Below are positions 38,094 to 44,947 of a stretch of 64,000 bases of DNA, one piece after another (within the stretch, counting starts at the first letter, position 1; every line of letters begins with the position of its first letter). A model generated the notes under the pieces. It was not told the DNA's origin, did no database searches, and saw only the letters and a list, made by a program, of their open reading frames with translations. Source of the DNA: Thetidibacter halocola. Lineage in GTDB: Bacteria; Pseudomonadota; Alphaproteobacteria; Rhodobacterales; Rhodobacteraceae. The translations under genes and the position numbers were made by a program. Where the stretch lies: the NCBI RefSeq assembly GCF_018224955.1, contig NZ_JAGTUU010000001.1, positions 496,001 through 560,000 on the forward strand. Direction: 5' to 3'.

Positions 38094-38147
38094 CCGTTTC
38101 TTCGCCGCTTGCACTGTATCGCTGACCCGCAAGCGACAGGAGCAGCG

Positions 38148-39551
38148 ATGCGCCCCGAACCTGAATTTCCCGTCCCGGATCACTCTGGAACCCTGACGGC
38201 GCTGACGCGGAACGCCTCAGGCCTCGGCCGCGAGGTGGTCGAGGTCAGCGCCTTTCTCACCGATCTTGACCGCCAGTGCCATGACCAGTCCGCGGCGCTC
38301 GGCGATGTCGCGCGGCATCGCGCCCGGCTCGACTCGGCGGTGGATCACATGCAGCAGGCCGTGGCGCGCATGGCGACGCAGTCGGCCGAGGCCGTGGACC
38401 GGATGCGCGACTCGAGCGCGGTCCTGGCCGAAAGCGGGCACGCCTCGCGCGGGCTGGCCGAATGGGTCAACGGCGTCCATGCCCAGGGCGAGACGGTGCA
38501 GCAGATGGTCATGGCCATCCGCAATTCCAACATCCAGATTTCCGACATCGCCAGCCAGGTCTCGATCCTCGCCGTGAACGCCAAGATCGAGGCAGCGCGC
38601 GCCGGTCAAGCGGGCAAGGGGTTTTCCATCGTCGCCGACGCGGTGAACGAGTTAAGTCAAAAGACCGCGCGCGCCGCCGAATCCGTCTCCGGCACGGTGT
38701 CGCACCTGTCGGACTGGCTTAACGGCTTGCAGGCGGGCGCCGCGCGCAACGCGCGCATCGCCGACGGAATCCTGTCCAACGCGACGCGTACCGACGCCGC
38801 ACTGAACGAATTGCAGGCACGGATCGGCAAGGTGGGCGCGGACGCCCAAGGCCTTTCCGAAAGCGCGGCCGAAGCGCGCGGCGCGGCAGAGGGCTTGCGC
38901 CCGGTCCTGTCGGGGATGGATCGTTTCGTCACCGAAGTGACCCACGGCGTGGACGAGGCGGCGCGCCGGTGCCTGACGCTGGTCGACACGTCCGAGGAAA
39001 TCCTCCAGCAGACGGTGGAACTGGGCGGCGACGGCGCCGACTCGCCGATGATCACGTTGGTGCAGGACCTGGCCGGTCAGATCGTGCTGGCCTTCGAGGA
39101 TGCGATCGCGCGGGGGCGGATCACGCCGTCGCAGCTGTTCGACACCACCTATCGCCCGATCCCCGGCAGCGATCCGCAGCAGGTGCGCACCGCCTTCACC
39201 GACCTGACCGACGCGCTGCTGCCGCCGATCCAGGAGCCGGTCCTGCACCGCGACCCACGCGTGGTGTTCTGCGCAGCGGTTGACCGCAACGGCTTTTTGC
39301 CGACGCACAATCGCAAGTTCTCCCAGCCGCAGGGTAACGACCCCGTGTGGAACGCCGCCAACTGCCGGAACCGCCGGATCTTCGACGACCGTGTTGGACT
39401 CAAGGCCGGGCGCAACGAACGGCCCTTCCTGTTGCAGGTCTACCGGCGCGACATGGGCGGCGGCACTTTCGTGATGATGAAGGATCTGTCTGCCCCGATC
39501 CGGGTCCAGGGCCGCCACTGGGGCGGTCTGCGGCTGGCCTACCGGCTGTAA
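38148..39551 (+). CDS. Soluble methyl-accepting chemotaxis-type receptor, signalling domain first
   Basis: 467 residues, no membrane segment. The N-terminal two-thirds are coiled-coil MCP signalling domain; the hairpin tip region reads [50 protein letters not shown] (given in parts: [38 protein letters not shown]). The C-terminal about 100 residues form a conserved module with [30 protein letters not shown] and [13 protein letters not shown], known from alphaproteobacterial receptors. Order is the reverse of typical receptors. AGGAGCAGCG precedes the ATG; no chemotaxis genes nearby. Confidence 0.85.
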
Positions 39552-39584
39552 AAAAACCGCCGCACTCCTTTTGGGAGGCGGCGG
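39550..39584 (-). terminator. Intrinsic terminator for the recG/small-protein strand
   Basis: On the minus strand CCGCCGCC (39584-39577) and inner CTCC pair across an AAAA loop with GGAG and GCGGCGG (39563-39557), followed by seven T residues (39556-39550). It serves transcripts coming from 39696. On the plus strand the same hairpin follows the chemoreceptor stop but lacks a T-run. Confidence 0.85.
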
Positions 39585-39695
39585 AGGAATGCGCGTCTTG
39601 GAATCGCCGGGCCGGTTCGGCAGGCAGCGCCGAAGGGGGACAGGCAGTCGCATCGGGACAGGATGCGGGGCCCGGGCGGAACACGCAGGCAGAAA

Positions 39696-39818
39696 TCAGA
39701 TCAGGGCGGGCAGGTGCAGCGCACCGAACAGGATCACCGAAAGGCTGATGACGCCCAGCGCATCCTGCCAAAGGGTCGCCTTGTTGCGGCTCATGGCGTC
39801 GGTCACGGTCTGGATCAT
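39696..39818 (-). CDS. 40-residue single-span membrane protein under an SOS box
   Basis: Too short for common gene finders. It encodes MIQTVTDAMSRNKATLWQDA then LGVISLSVILFGALHLPALI: a short polar, positively charged N-terminus and one hydrophobic helix (about 20-40). GGAGAACGAAG precedes the ATG. A canonical LexA box lies 63-77 bp upstream and an intrinsic terminator about 110 bp downstream, so it appears to be a complete SOS unit. Size and topology resemble the SOS-induced division inhibitor SidA of Caulobacter (29 residues), but the sequence does not match. Function inferred only. Confidence 0.7.
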   Translation of the reverse strand: MIQTVTDAMSRNKATLWQDALGVISLSVILFGALHLPALI

Positions 39819-39822
39819 CTTC

Positions 39823-39905
39823 GTTCTCCGATGTTCTCGTCTGTTGACCCTTTGTTCTCACACCGTTAACCGTATGTAAAGAACTTTTTGAGAACATTTG
39901 AGAAC
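39823..39905 (-). promoter_or_regulatory. LexA (SOS) box and GTTCTC repeat cluster
   Basis: GAACTTTTTGAGAAC at 39881-39895 (minus strand GTTCTCAAAAAGTTC) fits the alphaproteobacterial LexA consensus GTTC-N7-GTTC exactly. Extra GTTC half sites at 39905-39902 (minus) and, on the plus strand, at 39823, 39833 and 39854 form GTTCTC-N4-GTTCTC pairs with 6-base gaps. The cluster covers the promoter of the small gene ending at 39818. The N6 pairs may be lower-affinity sites or chance. Confidence 0.7.

Positions 39906-39964: not shown

Positions 39965-44947
<4,983 letters not shown>

Follow-up and report, generated by a model that had tools for sequence, protein, structure and literature searches.

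A conserved small membrane-protein gene with a LexA-type operator beside recG in Rhodobacteraceae, a candidate SOS division inhibitor

Does the short interval behind recG of Thetidibacter halocola hold a genuine gene that responds to DNA damage and, if so, what might its product do? In the 64,000 nt stretch analysed here (the window), a preliminary description had placed at this site a 40-codon open reading frame (ORF) with a ribosome site, one transmembrane helix, an intrinsic terminator and an upstream LexA box. The ORF is present as described (39818–39696, minus strand; translation MIQTVTDAMSRNKATLWQDALGVISLSVILFGALHLPALI), with recG as its syntenic upstream neighbor on the same strand (39965–42055, with matches to RecG_wedge and RecG_dom3_C), and with ligA, a response regulator and a chemotaxis-type gene also in the neighborhood. 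A ribosome-binding site, GGAG (39829–39826, minus strand), lies 7 nt ahead of the ATG. The intrinsic terminator (39584–39550, minus strand) was confirmed by folding, which gave a stem at 39584–39557 followed by a T run (−21.5 kcal/mol, z −5.1); a simple terminator scan of the ORF strand found nothing there, probably due to a 1-nt bulge. The T run is overlapped by the stop of a convergent gene of the methyl-accepting chemotaxis type (38109–39551, plus strand).

Of the first 31 Rhodobacteraceae genomes that we examined, 27 have an orthologue of the ORF, nearly always just 3′ of recG; in a protein search across 150 family genomes, its product was matched in 116 (E ≤ 1). Among 90 loci read base by base, 88 had the ORF behind recG and on the same strand; in these 88 its distance from the matched recG end was 84–316 bp and its length was constant, at 38–40 codons. 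In one genome (G060) it sits ca. 15 kb away from recG. Mean identity at codon positions 1, 2, and 3 was 0.54, 0.68, and 0.38, so that third positions vary most; dN/dS for close pairs was about 0.12–0.53, well below 1, and in an alignment of 85 sequences D19 and G22 were invariant, with M1, L26, L34, and P37 nearly so. By these measures it is the reading frame, and not only the DNA, that is conserved, and the ORF is, judged from its sequence, a real gene. Conservation is higher in the promoter DNA than in the protein, as might be expected if the conserved element were a LexA-controlled small RNA or part of the 3′ end of recG, with the ORF incidental; however, the codon-position pattern, the low dN/dS, the constant length and the invariant residues, together with the lack of any Rfam match at the locus at E ≤ 1, make this explanation extremely improbable.

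The promoter pattern, detailed below, occurred in 111 of the 150 family genomes, usually once in each, with the reversed control near zero, and led to diverged copies of the ORF behind recG in genomes negative by protein search; many genomes that seem to lack the ORF are false negatives. Likewise, 10 of 15 further protein-search-negative genomes with a recG match had a diverged ORF at recG, one case (G091) being doubtful, and these 10 were mostly accompanied by LexA half-sites or exact GAAC-N7-GAAC boxes. Among the first 31 genomes, the ORF is apparently absent only from G008, G014, G017, and G029.

Comparison of a 21-base promoter string with 85,000 species genomes retrieved at least 80 loci. 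Of the 80 matches listed, 77 are located behind recG and the ORF is present in 77; nearly all are from named genera of Rhodobacterales/Rhodobacteraceae and none is named from another order, the remainder being metagenome bins with no finer label than Alphaproteobacteria or Pseudomonadota. The recG flanks from outside Rhodobacteraceae had no LexA box (0/25), and a class-wide profile search for relatives of the ORF outside the family gave no credible match; we discarded its hits at E 0.003–0.01, which lie in long frames. A plasmid search retrieved a single weak match, from Pseudorhodobacter and without annotation.

The promoter region itself, read on the minus strand, contains two opposed LexA-type boxes. 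The upstream one, GTTCTCAAAAAGTTC (39895–39881), is the exact alphaproteobacterial GTTC-N7-GTTC already noticed in the preliminary description, and it adjoins a presumed −35 element, TTTACA (39880–39875), with TTGACA-like variants in relatives; box and adjoining −35 are kept in 89 of 90 orthologues. One extra GTTC half-site, of those also noticed earlier, lies 10 bp upstream of the box (39905–39902, N6 spacing) and is commonly conserved. A presumed extended −10 region (TGA-GAACAA, 39857–39852), placed by conservation 17 nt after TTTACA, matches TATAAT poorly and overlaps the second, inverted box, GAACAAAGGGTCAAC (39857–39843). This has the form GAAC-N7-[C/G]AAC, being GAAC-N7-CAAC in 72 orthologues and GAAC-N7-GAAC in 4. 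GAAC half-sites are found at 39857, 39836, and 39826, the last two forming an additional GAAC-N6-GAAC pair (39836–39823) that is not conserved in the family. The promoter consensus can be written as ttGTTC.caaaTGTTCtcAaAAAGTTCTTtACa-N17-GAACAAAggggcAACaaa. A sigma-70 promoter scan of the ORF strand found none. In one orthologue (L034) the downstream GAAC half-site is 11 bp, or one helical turn, closer than in the others, which suggests a face-of-helix relation between the two boxes. A link to CtrA through a GTTAA motif in the spacer was considered and dropped, the motif being present in only 18 of 76 sequences.

By itself the box is weak evidence, because GTTC-N7-GTTC occurs 129 times in the genome vs. 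50 for the reversed pattern, and we rejected the box alone as evidence of a LexA site; it is its conservation in 89 of 90 orthologues, together with the ORF, that leads us to take it as real. We scored both boxes with a matrix derived from those of recA and lexA, which by construction favors GAAC ends: the upstream box reached 15.3 and the inverted one 11.6, where the 99th percentile of random 170-bp window stretches was 10.2. Judged by its box, the ORF would belong to the LexA (SOS) regulon, and its putative LexA switch is among the most strongly preserved in Rhodobacteraceae genomes.

The five half-sites in the consensus are unusual, and together with the extra GTTC at N6 spacing they could point to an operator that serves a regulator other than LexA. 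Nevertheless, the same kind of exact box precedes lexA, recA, and imuB in the T. halocola genome (the first two identified by family search, imuB named by eye from its N-terminal sequence), and the motif is found family-wide at the promoters of lexA (28/28) and recA (25/30), so we consider a different regulator highly improbable. The recA promoters (G000:C1:156253-156267, L100, and L119; L315–L343) often combine a GAAC-N7-GAAC box with a GTTC half-site (GTTCTCTTTTTGATC-like) ca. 25 nt upstream, and this bipartite operator resembles the layout of the ORF promoter; in L329 both boxes are exact. Three other exact LexA boxes in the T. halocola genome (L104, C1:438623; L105, C1:590694; L112, C17:216553) have AT-rich spacers and lie near possible gene starts, and could possibly mark additional SOS genes.

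The recA box was absent from 6 of 8 genomes lacking the ORF vs. 2 of 35 others (p about 1e-4, for a non-random sample and uncorrected for relatedness). Three of the genomes without the ORF (G008, G017, and G029) have no exact LexA box before recA, and G029 also has no LexA match, which suggests that SOS was lost or rewired in them; G014 and G110 keep the recA box and apparently lack the ORF. Overall, the earlier proposal of a conserved small membrane-protein gene under LexA-type control is supported by the sequence and, within these searches, for Rhodobacteraceae only. The gene, its conservation, the operator architecture, and the helix and its conserved face described next are all supported by computation. 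To this extent, the locus appears to contain a new, previously unnamed small membrane-protein gene of SOS type, beside recG in nearly all Rhodobacteraceae sampled; our literature search, with many journals outside its coverage, found no description of it.

The product is predicted to be a small single-pass inner-membrane protein, in agreement with the single helix proposed initially. Residues 20–40 are uncharged in 84 of 85 orthologues and residues 1–18 have a net charge of about +1.1, which by the positive-inside rule would leave the N-terminus in the cytoplasm; a single-sequence AlphaFold2 model is one helix spanning residues 2–39 (pLDDT 85). No match to the product was found in Pfam or the PDB, and no family match in NCBIfam, with only weak single-member matches (best 0.011); in PHROGs, two unnamed families were weakly matched by 3 and 1 of the 85 members. 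The periodicity of conservation along the protein is strongest at 100 degrees per residue (p 0.003 by shuffling), with one helix face carrying R11, T15, D19, G22, L26, L30, and P37. This conserved face argues for a specific membrane partner: it would be expected of a helix that docks on a given membrane protein, and less so of a peptide that disrupts membranes in general.

Some SOS-induced peptides with one helix are toxins; TisB and DinQ are examples, restrained by antisense RNAs and narrow in distribution. A membrane-active peptide of this kind, lowering the membrane potential and slowing growth or favoring persistence, would agree with the ORF product in size class, single helix and LexA-type control (DinQ: PMC3567139), and the N-terminal half is indeed amphipathic (mean moment 0.41 vs. 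0.25 for shuffled sequences). However, the antisense or structured RNA control that accompanies such toxins had no counterpart here in Rfam, which a new antisense RNA would escape, and the single-copy, syntenic and near-universal conservation, the two invariant residues and the conserved face better fit a specific partner; we therefore deem a toxin unlikely. A division inhibitor is favored instead by the conserved face and by the way the gene is inherited, near-universally and in single copy beside recG. Four small membrane proteins induced by SOS or DNA damage, SidA, YneA, SosA, and ChiZ, inhibit division (PMC13396833, PMC4211646), and AlphaFold 3 models place all four on FtsW (PMC13396833). 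By this analogy, an SOS division inhibitor of the SidA/YneA kind is our best functional guess, to which we would give an even chance.

A helix with one conserved face would suit any multi-span partner equally. The product could thus be an SOS-induced regulator of another membrane protein, such as a histidine kinase (e.g., CckA), a transporter, or a component of DNA uptake or of gene transfer agent release, all the more as, in Rhodobacteraceae, both CckA/CtrA and gene transfer agents receive input from LexA (PMC6473078, PMC6363796). The ORF is, nonetheless, unlinked to genes of these types, and we hold such a role to be possible, at a modest probability. More specifically, that the bare helix switches off a multi-span partner other than FtsW, like CckA or another envelope regulator, and so lets DNA damage influence decisions on the cell cycle or on gene transfer in Rhodobacteraceae, seems to us doubtful.

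Returning to division inhibition, the ORF would be a core SOS gene of Rhodobacteraceae, a scheme that we see as evenly balanced between right and wrong. From general LexA biology, in undamaged cells LexA dimers on the two opposed boxes would cover the −35 and −10 regions and keep the promoter shut, and RecA on single-stranded DNA would elicit LexA self-cleavage and open it. A short transcript, stopping at the terminator, would then give the ca. 40-residue protein, which would insert as one continuous helix and keep its charged N-terminal end (K/R at positions 6 and 11) on the cytoplasmic side. Its conserved face may dock on a partner that spans the membrane several times, FtsW (the septal synthase) or its complex being the likeliest, and this would delay division until repair is complete. 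Our literature search found no SOS division inhibitor described for Rhodobacteraceae, which are abundant marine bacteria, and the ORF is a candidate for one: it is single-copy and syntenic, and its LexA-type operator is strongly preserved. Additionally, a product that is little more than a helix would bear on whether unrelated SOS membrane inhibitors converge on FtsW, as has been proposed.

Among known systems, TisB and DinQ of Escherichia coli are likewise encoded by LexA-controlled one-helix peptide genes, but differ in their antisense RNA control, none being seen at the ORF locus with Rfam. SidA of Caulobacter crescentus, another alphaproteobacterium, is also LexA-controlled, very small and built as a single helix in the inner membrane, and is likened to the ORF product by analogy, in regulation and in build as judged from sequence; it has 29 residues against about 40, and the class-wide profile search gave the ORF product no relatives outside Rhodobacteraceae. 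From the same species, DidA is another small damage-induced membrane protein that inhibits division, although it is 71 residues long and is induced by DriD, independently of SOS (PMC4211646). Finally, YneA of Bacillus subtilis, ChiZ of Mycobacterium and SosA of Staphylococcus are damage- or SOS-induced small membrane proteins, modelled or shown to inhibit division through FtsW (PMC13396833); the first two also have a LysM domain, located outside the membrane (PMC13396833), whereas the ORF product has almost nothing beyond its helix.
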